A stretch of 33,337 nucleotides of DNA, taken from the IMG/VR virus record IMGVR_UViG_3300021185_004134, positions 1 through 33,337 of that record. The stretch is one strand, 5' to 3'. The notes under the pieces are model-generated. The model was not told the DNA's origin and did not search any database. It worked only from the letters and a program-made list of their open reading frames with translations. This stretch comes from a virus. This document shows positions 11,174 to 30,033 of the stretch, in pieces. Position 1 is the stretch's first letter; every line of letters begins with the position of its first letter. The translations under genes were made by a program, and so were the position numbers.

Positions 11174-12703
11174 ATGGAAAAGCTAGAAAAATTTATGGCC
11201 ATCTTCGAGGGCCTAGACTGTGCCTACGGTACTTATCGTGTTTCAGGCGAGCCGAATGCAAAAGGCAAGAGCACTGGTCAGGCGCTCGTGGTACGCAAAG
11301 CGCCGACCAAGGACCTGTGGCAGCGCCACTTTGACGGCATAGACCCGTCACTAGGAATCATCCCAATACGCGCCGACAATAGCTGTACGTGGGGCGCGAT
11401 AGACATCGACCAGTACCCGCTAGACCTGCAGGCGCTGATCGAAAAGATTAAGAAGCTTGGCCTGCCGCTTGTTACCTTCCGCAGCAAGTCAGGTGGCGCG
11501 CACGTATACTGCTTTACGAAGACGCCAGTGCCTGCCGGTGATATGCAAAAGTATCTGACTGCATGCGGTGGCCTGCTCGGTGAGGCGGGGCGCGAGATAT
11601 TCCCGAAACAATCTGAAATCCTAGTCGAGCGTGGTGACACCGGCAACTACCTTAACCTGCCTTACTTTGGCGGTGAGAAGACCTTGCGCTACGCGCTTAA
11701 GGAAGACGGCAACAGCGCGACGCTTGACGAGTTTTTTGCTATCTACGAGGCCAACGTCCAAGACGCTTTGGTCACGCCTAAGCCTCCTGAGAAACCCGAT
11801 ACACCCGTGAAGGATGGGCCGCCATGCCTGCAGGCTCTCTGCTCGCAGGGCTTTCCTGAAGGCTCACGGAATAACGGAATGTTCAGCGTCGGCATCTACC
11901 TCAAGAAAGCTTTTCCTACCGGATGGGAAGACAAGCTGATGGAGTACAATCAAAAGTATTTTAATCCGCCCCTTGCTTTGCAGGAAATCTTGCTCATTCA
12001 GAAGCAGCTCGAGAAAAAGGAATACCGCTACAAGTGCAAGGATGACCCCATCAAATCATTCTGCAACCCTGCTTTGTGCAGGCAGCGCAAGCACGGAATT
12101 GGGGGTGATGGACCTGACAGCCCGCAGCTCACCTCACTAAGCAAGTACGCGAGCGAGCCGCCACTGTGGTTCCTAGACGTGAACGGGAAACGCATAGAGC
12201 TTGAGACCGAGAGTCTGTTTAATCAGATGTTTTTTCAGAAGGCGTGCATGGAGCGGCTGAACGTACTGCCGCCGACAGTTAAAAAGCCTGACTGGGAGGC
12301 CCTTATCAACGAGCTGCTGAGTGAGATGGTCGAGATGCAGGCCATCACCGAGGCGAGCGAAGACACCACAATCACCGGCCGGTTCGCTGATTTGGTTGAA
12401 GAGTTTACGACTCACCTGCAGCAGGCTATGGACCGCGACGAGATTCTCATGGGCCGAGTGTGGACTGATGAAGCAAACGGTGTTTCTTATCTACGGATCA
12501 AGGACCTCGAAGCGCATTTGAAGCGCAACAACTTCGGCGCGCTGTCGGCGCCTAAAATGGCGCAGCGGTTACGCGAGTTGGGTGGCGAGCCTAGCAGCAT
12601 AAACCTTAAAGGCCGCACGGCTCGGGTATGGAAGCTGCCTGTGTTTGATAAGCAGGACTCACCTTTCGATACGCCGACGAGCGACGATTCGGTGCCGTTC
12701 TAA
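11174..12703 (+). CDS. archaeo-eukaryotic-type (AEP) DNA primase, 509 aa
   Basis: The N-terminal ~200 residues match AEP primases of the kind often labelled TOTE conflict-system primase: CTWGAIDIDQYP supplies the metal-binding Asp77/Asp79 pair, and FRSKSGGAHVYCF supplies the S-x-x-x-H motif with His110. A middle domain (GFPEGSRNNGMFSVGIYLKK) resembles the primase C-terminal helical domain, and a Cys cluster (CKDDPIKSFCNPALC) near residues 290-306 may bind zinc. The C-terminal ~150 residues include a winged-helix-like segment. It synthesises primers for the polymerase two genes downstream. AGAAAGAAG precedes the ATG; the stop overlaps the helicase ATG by one base. Confidence 0.85.
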   Translation: MEKLEKFMAIFEGLDCAYGTYRVSGEPNAKGKSTGQALVVRKAPTKDLWQRHFDGIDPSLGIIPIRADNSCTWGAIDIDQYPLDLQALIEKIKKLGLPLVTFRSKSGGAHVYCFTKTPVPAGDMQKYLTACGGLLGEAGREIFPKQSEILVERGDTGNYLNLPYFGGEKTLRYALKEDGNSATLDEFFAIYEANVQDALVTPKPPEKPDTPVKDGPPCLQALCSQGFPEGSRNNGMFSVGIYLKKAFPTGWEDKLMEYNQKYFNPPLALQEILLIQKQLEKKEYRYKCKDDPIKSFCNPALCRQRKHGIGGDGPDSPQLTSLSKYASEPPLWFLDVNGKRIELETESLFNQMFFQKACMERLNVLPPTVKKPDWEALINELLSEMVEMQAITEASEDTTITGRFADLVEEFTTHLQQAMDRDEILMGRVWTDEANGVSYLRIKDLEAHLKRNNFGALSAPKMAQRLRELGGEPSSINLKGRTARVWKLPVFDKQDSPFDTPTSDDSVPF

Positions 12704-16119: not shown

Positions 16120-16431
16120 ATGCCAACAGGCGTGTATGTCCGGCGCAAATTGAAGCGCAAAAAGAAGAGACCGAAGGGCTACGTGGCTCCTCCCTCGCCG
16201 TCTAAGCGAGAAACGCCGTGGGCTAACCTGTGCGTCCGGTCTGAGAATTACGCGATGCTGCGTGAGCTTGGGGAGTATTACGAGGCGCCGCTGAGCAAGA
16301 TCGCAGGATCGTTGATCACGCGCCATTTTATTGAGCTTTTGCGGCAGAGTGACCCAGAAAAAGCCGACGCGCTAGAGGAGGAATACAAAAATGAAAAATA
16401 CGCTAGTCAGCTCATTGAACTTGCCCGTTGA
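16120..16431 (+). CDS. small basic protein, possible ribbon-helix-helix DNA-binding protein, 103 aa
   Basis: AAAGGAGA lies just upstream of the ATG. The first 30 residues are strongly basic (RRKLKRKKKRPKG). Residues ~38-75 read like a strand followed by two helices (LCVRSENYAMLRELGEYY, then a Ser-Lys-Ile-Ala helix), the pattern of ribbon-helix-helix repressors, which would fit an operon-autoregulating role; this is by eye only. It follows the polymerase after 55 bases containing an AATACTGTA word also found in the 26.4-26.7 kb control region. The end overlaps the next gene by 41 bases. Confidence 0.65.
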   Translation: MPTGVYVRRKLKRKKKRPKGYVAPPSPSKRETPWANLCVRSENYAMLRELGEYYEAPLSKIAGSLITRHFIELLRQSDPEKADALEEEYKNEKYASQLIELAR

Positions 16432-22032: not shown

Positions 22033-22247
22033 ATAAACCAATTCAAGAAGAGTTCTGGTTTGATATGCCGGAATTTGTGCAAGAAAAGCAGGCCCCGTAC
22101 CTCGAGCTTAAGGTACGGTTTGCAGACCAAGAAGCTCTCGAGGAGTTTTCCAAATTGATCGGCCAAAAGCTCACGGTTAAGACCAAGTCTATCTGGCACC
22201 CAGAGCTTGTTAGAGGGCTTAACGGAGGCAAGAGGTATGTTGAGTAA
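22029..22247 (+). CDS. small MPEFVQ-motif protein, 72 aa, linked to the glycosyltransferase
   Basis: ATG 22029 overlaps the hydrolase stop (ATGA). The product contains FWFDMPEFVQEKQAPYLELK and a LTVKTKSIWHPE ending. This motif pair recurs in phages next to glycosyltransferases or as a C-terminal add-on of other proteins (recollection, not verified). It overlaps the glycosyltransferase by 11 bases, so the two probably act together. Mechanism unknown. Confidence 0.65.
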   Translation: MNKPIQEEFWFDMPEFVQEKQAPYLELKVRFADQEALEEFSKLIGQKLTVKTKSIWHPELVRGLNGGKRYVE

Positions 22248-23136
22248 CCGTTACCCCGTTTACGTCGTCAGCAAGGGCAGGGCGCATTCTAGGCAGACTG
22301 TCAAAGCTCTTGAGCGGATGTCTGTAGAATACAGCGTGGTTGTCGAACAGGCTGAGCTTGAGGAGTACGCTCAGCACATTGATCGGCGCAGGCTGTTGGT
22401 GCTGCCGGAGCGATACAGGGCGGAGTATGAGCTGTGTGACGAGCTTGGCTTTACGAGGTCCACGGGCCCCGGCCCTGCCAGAAACTTTGTATGGGACCAC
22501 GCTACCGCTCTAGGCGTTAAACGCCACTGGGTCATGGATGACAACCTCGACGATTTTCATCGCTTAAATCGCAACATGAAGGTCCCAGTGCGGTCCCCTG
22601 CTACCCTTCGAGCGTCAGAGGATTTTGTCGACAGATTCGCCAACGTGCCAGTGGCCGGTATGAATTACTATTCGTTCTGCAAGAGCACTGACGGCGTGCC
22701 GCCGTTCGTGGCCAACACTCGAATCTATTCCTGCCTGCTGATTGAGAATGCTGCACCGTACAGGTGGCGAGGACGGTACAACGAGGATACCGATCTCAGC
22801 CTGAGAGTTCTCAAGGATGGCCTGTGTACGATCCAGTTCAATGCTTTCCTGTGTGGCAAGACAACCACGCAACGGATGAAGGGAGGCAACACAAAAGAAT
22901 TCTACGCAGGTGAAGGCACCTTGCCTAAATCTCAGATGATCGTGGACCTGCACCCTGACGTATCCAAGGTTGTTTGGCGCTTCAACCGATGGCACCACCA
23001 CGTCGACTACCGGCCATTTAAAAACAATAAGCTTATCTACCGAGACGACTATCAGAAGGTGGACCGAAATAACGAGTACGGCATGCGCCTTGTTGATTAC
23101 GGGATGAAAGCGCCAAAAGACTCCGGACGGCAGTAG
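22237..23136 (+). CDS. TAGT-like glycosyltransferase (candidate DNA base modification), 299 aa
   Basis: ATG 22237 is preceded by GGAGG. The protein matches the TET-associated glycosyltransferase (TAGT) pattern: RYPVYVVSKGRAHSRQT at the N-terminus, GPGPARNF (about 77-84), a WVMDDNLDDF stretch with the acidic sugar-nucleotide/metal site (Asp101, Asp102), and EDTDLSLR (about 183-190). Family members attach sugars to hydroxymethylated cytosines made by phage TET/JBP dioxygenases. No TET-type dioxygenase is seen in this window, so the acceptor base is unknown or the partner lies outside. DNA hypermodification to resist restriction is the most likely role, by inference. Confidence 0.75.
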   Translation: MLSNRYPVYVVSKGRAHSRQTVKALERMSVEYSVVVEQAELEEYAQHIDRRRLLVLPERYRAEYELCDELGFTRSTGPGPARNFVWDHATALGVKRHWVMDDNLDDFHRLNRNMKVPVRSPATLRASEDFVDRFANVPVAGMNYYSFCKSTDGVPPFVANTRIYSCLLIENAAPYRWRGRYNEDTDLSLRVLKDGLCTIQFNAFLCGKTTTQRMKGGNTKEFYAGEGTLPKSQMIVDLHPDVSKVVWRFNRWHHHVDYRPFKNNKLIYRDDYQKVDRNNEYGMRLVDYGMKAPKDSGRQ

Positions 23137-26727: not shown

Positions 26728-26973
26728 ATGACACTCTCAGGCATTACTCCACGGCAGCACACCCTGCGCCGTTGCAACGGTGACCACAAACAAGCCAGTT
26801 ATCCTTTCAAGGCGATGATTATCGGCGATTACTTTGTTGTCCTCTCGAAAGAGGATGCCAAGCGCATTAACGGCGCTTTGTCGACGTTTTATAGGTCTCG
26901 TAATGGCACAGGCAGGCGATTTTCTGTTACGCAGTCAGAAGGCCCTATGTGGACCTGTAGGAGGACAGCATGA
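26728..26973 (+). CDS. DUF7303-like small protein, 81 aa
   Basis: ATG 26728 follows GAGG. Residues ~26-80 contain YPFKAMIIGDYFVVLSKEDA and end in GPMWTCRRTA, the same YPFxxMxxGDxF...W layout as the 70-aa protein at 20064, to which it is probably a distant paralogue. It begins the operon for the small terminase and may be a regulator or accessory factor. The end overlaps the terminase start by ATGA. Confidence 0.7.
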   Translation: MTLSGITPRQHTLRRCNGDHKQASYPFKAMIIGDYFVVLSKEDAKRINGALSTFYRSRNGTGRRFSVTQSEGPMWTCRRTA

Positions 26974-27896
26974 GCAGCGAAGGGAAGAAACGCCGAGACA
27001 TTCTGAACACGTCGCCACTGCGGGGCAGCGCTAAAGAAAGGATTCAAGCACGGCTGAGTGAGCCGGTAGCCCCACTCAAAAATCAGAAGCACATTGTCAG
27101 CGCTCAGCAATGGACCTTCATTCAAGAATTCATATCGAACGACGGGCACATTACTCTGACTGAGGCCGCAATACGCGCCGGTTATCCTAAGGATTCGGCA
27201 AGCTCGATAGCCTCGGAACTTACGGACCCAAAAAAGAAACCGCACGTCGTCGCAGCCATCCAAGAATATCGAGCACAACTCGCTGAGAAATACGGCACGA
27301 ACTTCGACCGGCACATGCGCGACATGCAGATGATTCGTGATAAGGCTCTCGAGGCAGGCAACTTCGGCGCAGCAGTCTCTGCTGAATACCGGCGCGGCCA
27401 AGCTCTCGGCACCATCTACATCGAGCGGAAGGAAATTAGGCACGGCACCATCGACAGCATGTCGAAAGAGGAGGTCACTCGAAAGCTCGAAGAGATCAAG
27501 GCGCTGTACGGTTCACCACCGCAGACCCTGATAGACATCGAGCCTGAGCAGCTCGAAGAGATCGAAGAGATCGAAGAGATTCCCCCCGCCAAAACAATGA
27601 TCGAGGAGATGCGCGATGCCGAGCGGTCCAGAGGCAGCACTGCACAAACGAGTGAAGACAAACCTGCCGGACGCGACGATAGTGCGACTGGAGAACCGGG
27701 TGAACCTCGGGATACCGGACTGCCTGATAGCCCTGCCGCCGACATACTCGATGGTGGAGCTGAAGGTGGTGAAGACCGGCAAGAAAGTGCGCTTGAGTCC
27801 GCACCAGATAGCCTTCGCCCTGAAACACGGGACGATGGGGATGCCGACGTACATTCTAGTCCAGTGGCACCCTCAGGGGACGACCAAGGCCGCTGA
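26970..27896 (+). CDS. terS: terminase small subunit, 308 aa
   Basis: ATG 26970 overlaps the preceding stop; GGAGGAC lies upstream. Residues ~44-95 form the DNA-binding helical domain of phage small terminases (QQWTFIQEFISNDGHITLTE, AAIRAGYPKDSASSIASEL), followed by a helical oligomerisation region to about residue 195 and a KLEEIKALYG helix. The last ~93 residues are Asp/Glu/Ser/Pro-rich and disordered, and overlap the next gene for 281 bases in another frame. The subunit recognises the packaging site and positions TerL. Longer than typical small terminases (about 150-200 aa) because of this tail. Confidence 0.85.
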   Translation: MSSEGKKRRDILNTSPLRGSAKERIQARLSEPVAPLKNQKHIVSAQQWTFIQEFISNDGHITLTEAAIRAGYPKDSASSIASELTDPKKKPHVVAAIQEYRAQLAEKYGTNFDRHMRDMQMIRDKALEAGNFGAAVSAEYRRGQALGTIYIERKEIRHGTIDSMSKEEVTRKLEEIKALYGSPPQTLIDIEPEQLEEIEEIEEIPPAKTMIEEMRDAERSRGSTAQTSEDKPAGRDDSATGEPGEPRDTGLPDSPAADILDGGAEGGEDRQESALESAPDSLRPETRDDGDADVHSSPVAPSGDDQGR

Positions 27897-28041
27897 CACG
27901 CGCCTGCTGCTGTACCACGGCACGCAGGCTCAAGAGCTGCACGAAAAGGGCGTAGAGACGCCTCCAGTAGCCCAGTGGGCCTTGAATGCAGTCAACTGGA
28001 GTGAAATGCGCGCTGAAATAGTAAAAGGACGCCGTATATGA
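27616..28041 (+). CDS. VRR-NUC/PD-(D/E)XK-like endonuclease, 141 aa
   Basis: ATG 27616 follows GAGGAG. Core motifs are GIPDCLIA (Asp35), YSMVELKVVK (Glu48, Lys50) and SPHQIAFAL (Gln64), the arrangement of VRR-NUC / Hjc-like nucleases that cut branched DNA. The C-terminal half is less conserved. It begins inside terS in another frame and lies before terL, so it may resolve replication intermediates before packaging. Real-gene status is well supported because the conserved nuclease motif lies in this frame. Confidence 0.82.
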   Translation: MPSGPEAALHKRVKTNLPDATIVRLENRVNLGIPDCLIALPPTYSMVELKVVKTGKKVRLSPHQIAFALKHGTMGMPTYILVQWHPQGTTKAADTRLLLYHGTQAQELHEKGVETPPVAQWALNAVNWSEMRAEIVKGRRI

Positions 28042-28131
28042 GCCAAACAAGCCCTGTGAGCGCGCCTAGCCTGACCCCTTGCCTACCTACCACTTACAAG
28101 AGAACGTGGCACAGTGGAAACTGGGAAGGGG

Positions 28132-28417
28132 GCCTCGGCCGCCCCCGCGCGGGGTGCGAGCGGCGCGTTTTTGGCTCTGGGCGCCCAGATGCGTGGACCA
28201 AGGCCCGAGGTGCCCGAATCGGGGCAACCACTAGATGTAGTGTTTGGCGGGGGCCGAGGCGCATGGAAATAGCTAAGTGCTTGATTTTAAACGATTCACT
28301 ATTTCCGGTAATAGGTATTACCGGAAATAGCGGGTCCCTTTTGGCCGTTTCTGAGGCCAGATGAGAATCGTTCGCATCTGGCCCGAACGGCCGCCCCCTC
28401 CTCGCGGAGTGCGGGGC
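28132..28417 (+). ncRNA. highly foldable element: candidate structured RNA or packaging site
   Basis: Outer pairing GCCTCGGCC (28132-28140) with GGCCGAGGC (28252-28260) encloses palindromes CCCCGCGCGGGG (28143-28154) and TCTGGGCGCCCAGA (28176-28189), plus CACTA / TAGTG (28229-28242). Next come a perfect 14-bp stem (28299-28330), a nested pair GGCCGTT / AACGGCC (28343-28349, 28386-28392) around GGCCAGATG / CATCTGGCC, and GCCCC / GGGGC (28393-28417) around CTCC-TCGC-GGAG. Such density is unlikely by chance. It could be a noncoding RNA, a pac/cos site, or both. Confidence 0.55.
28299..28330. repeat. perfect 14-bp inverted repeat with 4-base loop
   Basis: CTATTTCCGGTAAT (28299-28312) and ATTACCGGAAATAG (28317-28330) are exact reverse complements around AGGT. 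There is no T-run, so it is not an ordinary terminator; a protein-binding dyad, a terminase site or part of the structured element are alternatives. Confidence 0.92.
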
Positions 28418-28466
28418 TTAAGCTAGATTTCACACAAATAATTTGGCCCAAAACAAAAATGGACTA

Positions 28467-28482
28467 TGTTCCACGTGGAACA
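28467..28482. promoter_or_regulatory. parS-like palindrome
   Basis: TGTTCCACGTGGAACA is a perfect 16-bp palindrome and matches the bacterial chromosomal parS consensus (TGTTnCACGTGnAACA) at every fixed position. ParB proteins bind this site. It lies 19 bp upstream of the terL -35 box. No ParB gene is seen in the window. Confidence 0.85.
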
Positions 28483-28501
28483 CCCTAGCTAACCCACCCC
28501 C

Positions 28502-28530
28502 TTGTTTCTGACAATCAAAAGGGCTATAAA
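28502..28530 (+). promoter_or_regulatory. sigma70-like promoter for terL
   Basis: TTGTTT (28502-28507), 17 bp, TATAAA (28525-28530), followed by an AT-rich start region ending near the ATG at 28552. The leader would be very short (about 15 bases) with no strong ribosome binding site. Confidence 0.7.
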
Positions 28531-28551
28531 TTTTTAGCAAATTTCTACTAA

Positions 28552-30033
28552 ATGGGAATTTTTATGCAACAAGATGTCGATGCCGAACGATTAAAGTTAG
28601 AGCTACGCTTAGCCTTGCTAGAGGGCCAAGAACGGGCACAGGACACCTTTATCGGTTTCTCTCAGTACGTCTGGCCTGAAGCGATACTCAGCAGCCACCA
28701 TAAGATTATGGCTGACGCTTTTGACCGAATAGCCAAGGGAACCCTAAAGCGCTTAATCGTGAACATGCCTCCTCGACACACCAAATCAGAATTTGCGTCG
28801 TATCTGCTGCCTGCTTACATCATGGGCCGTCGTCCAAGCACCAAGATCATTCAGGCGACACACACCGGCGAGCTTGCTGTCAGATTCGGCCGTAAGGTGC
28901 GTAACCTCATGGACCTTGATAAATACAAGGAAGTATTCCCTGACGTAGCCTTGAAGGCTGATAGTAAAGCCGCCGGAAGGTGGGACACGGACAAAGGAGG
29001 GGAGTACTTTGCTGTAGGTGTAGGCGGCGCGATGACGGGCCGTGGTGCGGATATGCTGATTATCGATGACCCGCACTCGGAGCAGGACGCGGCGTCGGTG
29101 TTAGCTCTGGACAACGCTTGGGACTGGTACACGTCTGGGCCTAGAACTAGATTGCAGCCGGGTGGGGCAATTGTTATCGTCATGACTCGGTGGGGAACCA
29201 AGGACCTAACGGCCCGATTACTCAAATCTCAGTCCAACATGAATGCGGACCAATGGGAGGTTATTGAGTTCCCTGCCGTTTTTGATGAAGGCGAAGAGAA
29301 CGAGCGCGCCCTTTGGCCTAGCTTCTGGGAGCTTGACGAACTCAGGGCTGTGCGTGCTTCTATGTCCATTCAGAAATGGAACGCGATGTACCAACAACGG
29401 CCCACGGCTGATGAGGGTGCAATCTTAAAGCGTGAGTGGTGGCGCGTGTGGGATAAGGACTACATGCCGCACATGGAATATCTTATTCAGTCGTATGATA
29501 CCGCGTACTCGAAGAAGGAGACGGCGGATTTCTCTGTCATTACGACGTGGGCGGTGTTCTTCCCCACGGAGGACTCGGGGCCTAATCTGTTGCTTGTTGA
29601 CATGCGTAAAGGCCGGTGGGACTTTCCTGACCTTAAGCGTAAGGCGAAGGAGCAGTATGACTACTGGCAGCCGGATAATGTCTTAATCGAGGCCAAGGCG
29701 ACGGGAATCACGCTTCAGCAGGAACTGCGTAGGATGGGCATTCCGGTTACTATGTATAGCCCCGGCGGGCGACGCGCAGGCCAAGACAAGGTGTCACGAG
29801 CAAACTCTGTCGCACCGATTTTTGAGTCCGGCATGGTCTGGGCACCTGAGACGGATTGGGCAGACGAAGTGATCGAGCAGTGTGCGGCGTTCCCTAACGG
29901 TGACAACGACGACATGGTGGATAGTACGACTCAGGCTTTGATGCGTTTTCGTGCCGGTAATTTCATCTCTCTGCACAGTGATGAGGACGACGATCCCTCG
30001 GAAAATGAAGGGCTTGTCCCTGAGTATTATTAG
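28552..30033 (+). CDS. terL: terminase large subunit, 493 aa
   Basis: Packaging motor with N-terminal ATPase and C-terminal nuclease. Walker A-like PPRHTKS (73-79), Walker B LIIDDP (about 169-174), and a coupling segment with TRWGTKD follow. The nuclease acidic residues are Asp316 in SYDTAYS, Glu380 in LIEAKATG and Asp454/Asp457 in DDMVDS. Length is usual for the family. Start is uncertain: ATG 28552 has no clear ribosome binding site, and ATG 28564 has GGGA upstream. It lies after TerS and the nuclease, separated by a structured gap, and drives DNA into proheads. Confidence 0.95.
   Translation: MGIFMQQDVDAERLKLELRLALLEGQERAQDTFIGFSQYVWPEAILSSHHKIMADAFDRIAKGTLKRLIVNMPPRHTKSEFASYLLPAYIMGRRPSTKIIQATHTGELAVRFGRKVRNLMDLDKYKEVFPDVALKADSKAAGRWDTDKGGEYFAVGVGGAMTGRGADMLIIDDPHSEQDAASVLALDNAWDWYTSGPRTRLQPGGAIVIVMTRWGTKDLTARLLKSQSNMNADQWEVIEFPAVFDEGEENERALWPSFWELDELRAVRASMSIQKWNAMYQQRPTADEGAILKREWWRVWDKDYMPHMEYLIQSYDTAYSKKETADFSVITTWAVFFPTEDSGPNLLLVDMRKGRWDFPDLKRKAKEQYDYWQPDNVLIEAKATGITLQQELRRMGIPVTMYSPGGRRAGQDKVSRANSVAPIFESGMVWAPETDWADEVIEQCAAFPNGDNDDMVDSTTQALMRFRAGNFISLHSDEDDDPSENEGLVPEYY

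Follow-up and report, generated by a model that had tools for sequence, protein, structure and literature searches.

A spacer upstream of terL in a viral contig probably combines copied host recombination and partition sites

What purpose is served by the dense palindromes between the terminase genes of a viral contig? The contig of 33,337 bases (the whole of which is referred to here as the window) has a spacer flanked by the terS and phrog_2165 genes on one side and terL on the other. In a preliminary description, positions 28132-28417 of this spacer had been singled out for their nested palindromes, and a packaging site or a non-coding RNA had been proposed. As judged from sequence comparisons, the palindromes are mostly DNA landing sites, not RNA, by way of which host enzymes are probably enlisted for closing and sorting the phage genome. 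The features of the region are as follows.

26970-27896, + strand: terS, small terminase subunit (PF03592, 3.3e-6; phrog_51, 3.5e-9)
27616-28041, + strand: phrog_2165 protein, putative nuclease (phrog_2165, 4.5e-12), in another frame and overlapping terS
28132-28260, no strand: GC-rich nested stems, not conserved even among close relatives
28274-28286, - strand: IHF-consensus site AATCAAGCACTTA, 16 bp from the 24-bp core of the dif-like site
28301-28328, no strand: dif-like Xer recombination site of 11-6-11 bp, ATTTCCGGTAA-TAGGTA-TTACCGGAAAT, with the arms of chromosomal terminus sites
28331-28354, no strand: conserved block CGGGTCCCTTTTGGCCG (alignment A1)
28355-28383, no strand: variable palindrome, Fur-box-like (GATGAGAAT..) in close relatives, unrelated palindromes elsewhere
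28420-28547, no strand: conserved terL-proximal block around parS, TTAAGC..GATTTCACACAA.., AACCCACCCCCTT..AATCAAA (alignment A1)
28467-28482, no strand: parS TGTTCCACGTGGAACA, 0 mismatches, the sole close match in the window
28552-30033, + strand: terL, large terminase subunit (phrog_38, 2.3e-109; PF17289)

The overlap of terS and the phrog_2165 gene amounts to about 280 nt (27616-27896) in different frames, and the pair is kept in relatives. Elsewhere in the window, a TET-associated glycosyltransferase (PF20691, 3.5e-50) is encoded at 22207-23136, which suggests that the phage DNA is hypermodified, and an AEP primase of the TOTE-conflict-system type (PF22548) is encoded at 11174-12703 in the replication module.

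The strongest palindrome of the spacer, 28299-28330, surrounds the dif-like site and consists of a fully paired 15-bp stem (28299-28313/28316-28330, 100%) with a 2-nt loop. Further stems were found at 28355-28367/28371-28383 (13 bp, 92%), a hairpin that is itself surrounded by GGCCGTT..AACGGCC, and at 28132-28146/28246-28260 (15 bp, 87%), together with shorter, GC-rich nested stems. The folding of the spacer was stronger than that of dinucleotide shuffles (z -4.3 on the + strand, z -5.7 on the - strand); the density of palindromes noted earlier is real and exceeds chance, the exact stem lengths being slightly different from those first given. No family match was obtained for a 108-aa ORF running across the palindromes (28038-28364), in line with the earlier view that no believable protein is encoded, and the flanking genes agree with the proposed packaging-region location. 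The segment first described ends 50 nt before another perfect 16-bp palindrome, the parS at 28467-28482.

Relatives were collected as 80 loci by terL homology and as 112 viral stretches by the palindrome itself, and 14 related spacers were aligned (alignment A1). Conservation in this alignment extends to TAAGTNNTTGATTT, to the palindrome (10-bp arms TTCCGGTAAT/ATTACCGGAA), to GGGTCCC and to the terL-proximal block with its parS; this block is partly retained in DSL-LC04, which has no parS. The nested GC-rich part is swapped out in close relatives (e.g. L007). Between GGGTCCC and parS, the palindrome at 28355-28383 has counterparts at the same position in L004, L006, L011 and L041, taking the Fur-box-like form GATGAGAATGATTCTCATT in close relatives and unrelated forms elsewhere, for example TCGAGCGAACGCTCGCTCGA. 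BLASTN searches with the spacer and with a 36-mer gave no match among named phages, and a literature text search on the palindrome returned unrelated papers only.

The folding scores could point to a structured phage non-coding RNA acting in packaging or titration, as had been suggested from the nested, RNA-like layout, but a search of the spacer against Rfam gave no match and a search for a sigma-70-like promoter found none. RNAalifold analysis of the 14 spacers returned a covariation term of 0.02 and left the dif-like and parS stems besides a few short helices. With the GC-rich stems unconserved, covariation at this level and Rfam silent, the RNA hypothesis is without support. Both conserved palindromes, moreover, have counterparts in bacterial chromosomes that are DNA sites of known type, and we regard an RNA as extremely improbable. 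What stands of the earlier proposal is the non-coding character of the segment, its place in the packaging region and the probable binding of host factors there.

The arms of the phage dif-like site are identical to those of chromosomal terminus sites linked to a Xer-type recombinase. These arms were found in at least 119 bacterial genome stretches, mostly from marine and freshwater Gammaproteobacteria, and 84 of the at least 119 listed stretches had the asymmetric centre AAAG; many of these loci were found by scanning for the palindrome itself, which biases the frequencies among them. A 20-bp core, CCGGTAATNNNNATTACCGG, was present as one exact copy in 10 of 12 palindrome genomes, some of which have an additional one-mismatch match, and as two copies in the other two. 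When stretches were oriented by AAAG, GC skew was +0.030 on the left and -0.017 on the right, being lower on the right in 57 of 72 cases. The complete chromosome of Pseudohongiella has its AAAG copy at 3.308 of 6.587 Mb, and the sampled skew flips sign between 3.25 and 3.35 Mb. A tyrosine recombinase of about 400 amino acids was encoded within the same 8-kb stretch at 57 of the at least 119 listed loci, often 65-200 bp away, and the centre was AAAG in 52 of these 57; the recombinase was present in 17 of 20 palindrome genomes. A survey of 274 gammaproteobacterial genomes, 43 of them with the recombinase, identified the AAAG palindrome (allowing up to 2 mismatches) in eight, six of which encode the recombinase. 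Symmetric variants, TTCCGATAAT..ATTATCGGAA and TTCCTGTAAT..ATTACAGGAA, are among the matches in these six; imperfect palindromes make up the remaining two matches. Where host arms vary, both arms change together and AAAG is constant.

Neither a XerD over the cut-off nor a canonical dif was found in eight genomes that carry the palindrome, and in relatives without the palindrome no canonical XerCD dif was clearly above shuffled controls. The recombinase had no sequence relatives in the PDB; a homolog from a Legionellales MAG was 59% identical. The GC-skew switch, the adjacent XerL-like tyrosine recombinase and the usual centre AAAG together identify the host palindrome as a candidate chromosomal dif. 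It would be consistent with a system run by one recombinase, as described for dif/XerL in the Legionellales, in which a terminus-proximal intergenic site with perfect-dyad arms of 10-12 bp and a short centre is served by one tyrosine recombinase of about 400 amino acids (PMC9765430). The type of arms, short centre, terminus-proximal intergenic location and probably the single recombinase are shared on the host side here, but the hosts are Pseudomonadales and related lineages and the recombinase gene is usually close to dif, whereas in L. pneumophila it is more than 400 kb away (PMC9765430). An XerL-like dif system would thereby be revealed in abundant aquatic Gammaproteobacteria. Classification of the palindrome as a REP or MITE was rejected, the host copies being usually single, at the skew switch and accompanied by the recombinase. 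In Pseudohongiella (G021:C1:4.477-4.487 Mb; L384), two dif-like sites with centres other than AAAG (7054 and 16530) flank a segment of about 9.5 kb that resembles a Xer-mobilised module or an integrated element.

In the phages, 11-bp inverted arms that are near-invariant among relatives enclose a 6-bp centre, and what sets the phage copy apart from the dif/XerL site is its private centre, together with the IHF site. The centre is AGGT in the present phage, compared with AAAG in hosts. The arms were retained across 87 distinct phage sites whose centres were diverse, AAAG occurring in none (0/87); eight viral sites with variant arms were likewise without AAAG, and the centre of phage L037, AATA, is that of a rare host centre (L208). 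The absence of AAAG by itself is expected with random centres; what matters is that the centre fixed in the host is not shared by phages. The IHF consensus WATCAANNNNTTR, met by 28274-28286, occurred within 80 nt of 79 of 84 phage sites (expected 0.3), and near 5 of 82 host sites (expected 1.2). In 54 cases a gap of 16 bp separates the IHF site from the dif-like site, and in 10 others the gap is 26-28 bp, longer by roughly one turn of the helix; with the IHF site in the opposite orientation it was 8-9 bp in five cases, and in one group of relatives (L020-L023, L029, L041, L047) the IHF site is on the other flank. The identity of the dif-like site is well supported, and the agreement between phage arms and host dif arms may provide a signal for host prediction. 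A telomere (protelomerase) site was rejected, since most members have a non-palindromic centre.

No relative of the host recombinase was found in 20 phage records, and 17 of 18 records lacked a tyrosine recombinase of any kind. A dif mimic in phages usually without an integrase is what characterises integrative mobile elements exploiting Xer (IMEX) such as LME-1, CTXphi, VGJphi and TLCphi (PMC9765430, PMC5357621), and the phage might accordingly be thought to integrate at the chromosomal dif via host Xer, as do CTXphi/VGJphi and, in Legionella, LME-1, an IMEX that resembles a phage and belongs to the related XerL system (PMC9765430). The attachment site of LME-1, however, is a 22-bp identical copy of dif, whereas the centre of the present sites is unlike host dif, an IHF site is added, the position is linked to packaging and the phages are tailed, of about 60 kb. 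Nor was any insertion at dif found: in TBLASTN searches, none of the at least 119 listed 8-kb genome stretches encoded a terS, nuclease-like protein or terL of the present phage's family. Differing centres do not strictly bar integration, since VGJphi tolerates four differences (PMC5357621), and for this reason IMEX-type integration is disfavoured rather than excluded; we consider it improbable. Dif mimics were until now associated with phages that integrate, whereas the centre here makes integration less likely and the position links the site to packaging.

The dif-like site was upstream of terL in all 79 distinct sites with terL in the locus, at a distance of 225-3766 nt. The TerL proteins belong to at least three groups (the present phage's family, L132 and the L150/L110/L131 set) with no significant BLASTP similarity between them, and even within the last set L150 is just 24-25% identical to L110 and L131. 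The same placement beside unrelated TerLs, a case of convergence, suggests that the function of the site is tied to DNA packaging. The phage genomes are metagenomic; near-complete assemblies have repeats of 99-126 nt at or near both ends and breaks at varying places relative to terL, which is compatible with circular or permuted genomes and is no proof of headful packaging. Circular assemblies measure about 57-62 kb.

Location between terS and terL would also suit a lambda-like cos or pac site, with palindromes and IHF site serving terminase binding and cutting and the likeness to dif being secondary. The cosB site of lambda includes an IHF site too, and contigs L024, L092 and L158 start or stop no more than about 5 nt from the dif-like palindrome. 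These ends may be real DNA ends or assembly breaks, however; the arms are identical to chromosomal dif in every letter, and the same palindrome accompanies unrelated terminases, which is unexpected for a terminase-specific site, so that we judge this explanation quite improbable.

The second conserved palindrome, 28467-28482, fits the 16-bp parS consensus with 0 mismatches. Among the closest relatives (terL at least 80% identical) parS was upstream of terL in 39 of 45 and the dif-like site in 42 of 45; at 70-80% the figures were 19 of 44 and 15 of 44, usually apart, the dif share being inflated as part of the relatives came via the palindrome. Neither site is universal, given the absence of parS from six of the 45 and of one or both from most of the 70-80% relatives. 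Hosts with this dif have an origin-proximal parS of the same sequence, TGTTCCACGTGGAACA, within recF, which neighbours dnaN and gyrB and is not far from dnaA; exact parS was found in 9 of 14 hosts. The phage site is thus like bacterial parS in being a 16-bp palindrome, TGTTYCACGTGRAACA, identical to that of the host, but it adjoins terL on a phage without detectable parB, no ParB_N domain having been found in 20 phage records. The phage parS would be expected to recruit host ParB, and the idea that phages hijack ParB via parS without a ParB gene of their own is testable.

The pairing of the two sites invites comparison with phage P1, which has lox next to pac, plus parS, and which encodes Cre, ParA and ParB. 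Cre-loxP is a multimer resolution system (PMC10999674). The likeness lies in a recombination site by the packaging region together with parS, and the difference in that the present phages copy host sites and neither a recombinase relative nor ParB was found in their records (0/20 each). As on P1, a multimer-resolution site paired with parS could serve maintenance of a phage-plasmid, the one resolving plasmid-prophage dimers and the other partitioning the prophage plasmid, with cyclisation at infection secondary. The circular assemblies would agree with this, but ParB is missing from the records, no close relative was found among 72,556 plasmids in PLSDB (best below 60% identity), and maintenance alone does not account for a site hugging terL in unrelated phages; it appears rather unlikely. 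Alternatively, the dif-like and parS sites might act as decoys, tying up the Xer and ParB of the host so that its division is disturbed, or as tags by which phage DNA passes for self. Site copies do increase with phage replication, and parS is identical to that of the host, yet there is usually one copy per genome, titration needs no private centre and the IHF phasing is left unaccounted for, making this very improbable.

On balance we favour, with some reservation, a locus for recombination and partition that is linked to packaging and operated by Xer, IHF and ParB of the host. The spacer would be a cis-acting DNA locus made of copied host chromosome-maintenance sites, its dif-like core bound by the single XerL-like tyrosine recombinase of the host. 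The phased IHF site may bend the DNA and build the synapse, standing in for FtsK control or for plasmid-type accessory factors. The private 6-bp centre would direct recombination to the phage's own copies and disfavour host dif (AAAG) or the sites of other phages. The site lies just upstream of terL, close to where packaging presumably starts; headful DNA with terminal redundancy would therefore often have a copy at each end, and host Xer could turn injected genomes into circles, or resolve multimers, independently of RecA, comparable to Cre-lox beside pac in P1. The adjacent parS may then recruit host ParB, by which the circular genome would be positioned or segregated. The result would be a phage genome circularised or monomerised without integration at host dif. 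The comparison shows the identity, conservation, phasing and position of the sites, with no phage recombinase or ParB in the records searched, and from it we infer recombination, ParB binding, headful packaging and the purpose of the locus; the centre and the position suggest that host Xer can circularise tailed-phage genomes. The arrangement resembles plasmid cer and psi, where a Xer core with an accessory-protein site at fixed distance serves intramolecular resolution (PMC5357621), but those sites are plasmid-borne, depend on the XerCD pair and use ArgR, PepA or ArcA, not IHF (PMC5357621).

A wider reading, which we put forward tentatively as a possibility, is that tailed phages which belong to one large group of bacteria but are unrelated to each other convergently use a host-Xer site with a private crossover and an IHF site by the packaging start, many with a host-type parS, and leave host proteins to circularise, monomerise and partition their genomes: a P1-like maintenance made only of DNA sites. 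In L059, L064, L072, L073 and L078, the expected place of the dif-like site, some 300-420 nt before terL, is occupied by another palindrome of the type GTGTTTGTAT-N4-ATACAAACAC, whose arms of 11-13 bp enclose a 4-nt centre; it is possibly the same device for different hosts. L048, L049 and L062, which have no dif-like site, carry three parS-like sites upstream of terL, spaced 35-48 nt in L048 and L049. A parS-like site with 1 mismatch to the 16-mer is also located near terS (16412-16427) in Pelagibacter phage HTVC027P (L085), an isolate with a known host, SAR11 HTCC1062, which makes it a good experimental entry point.
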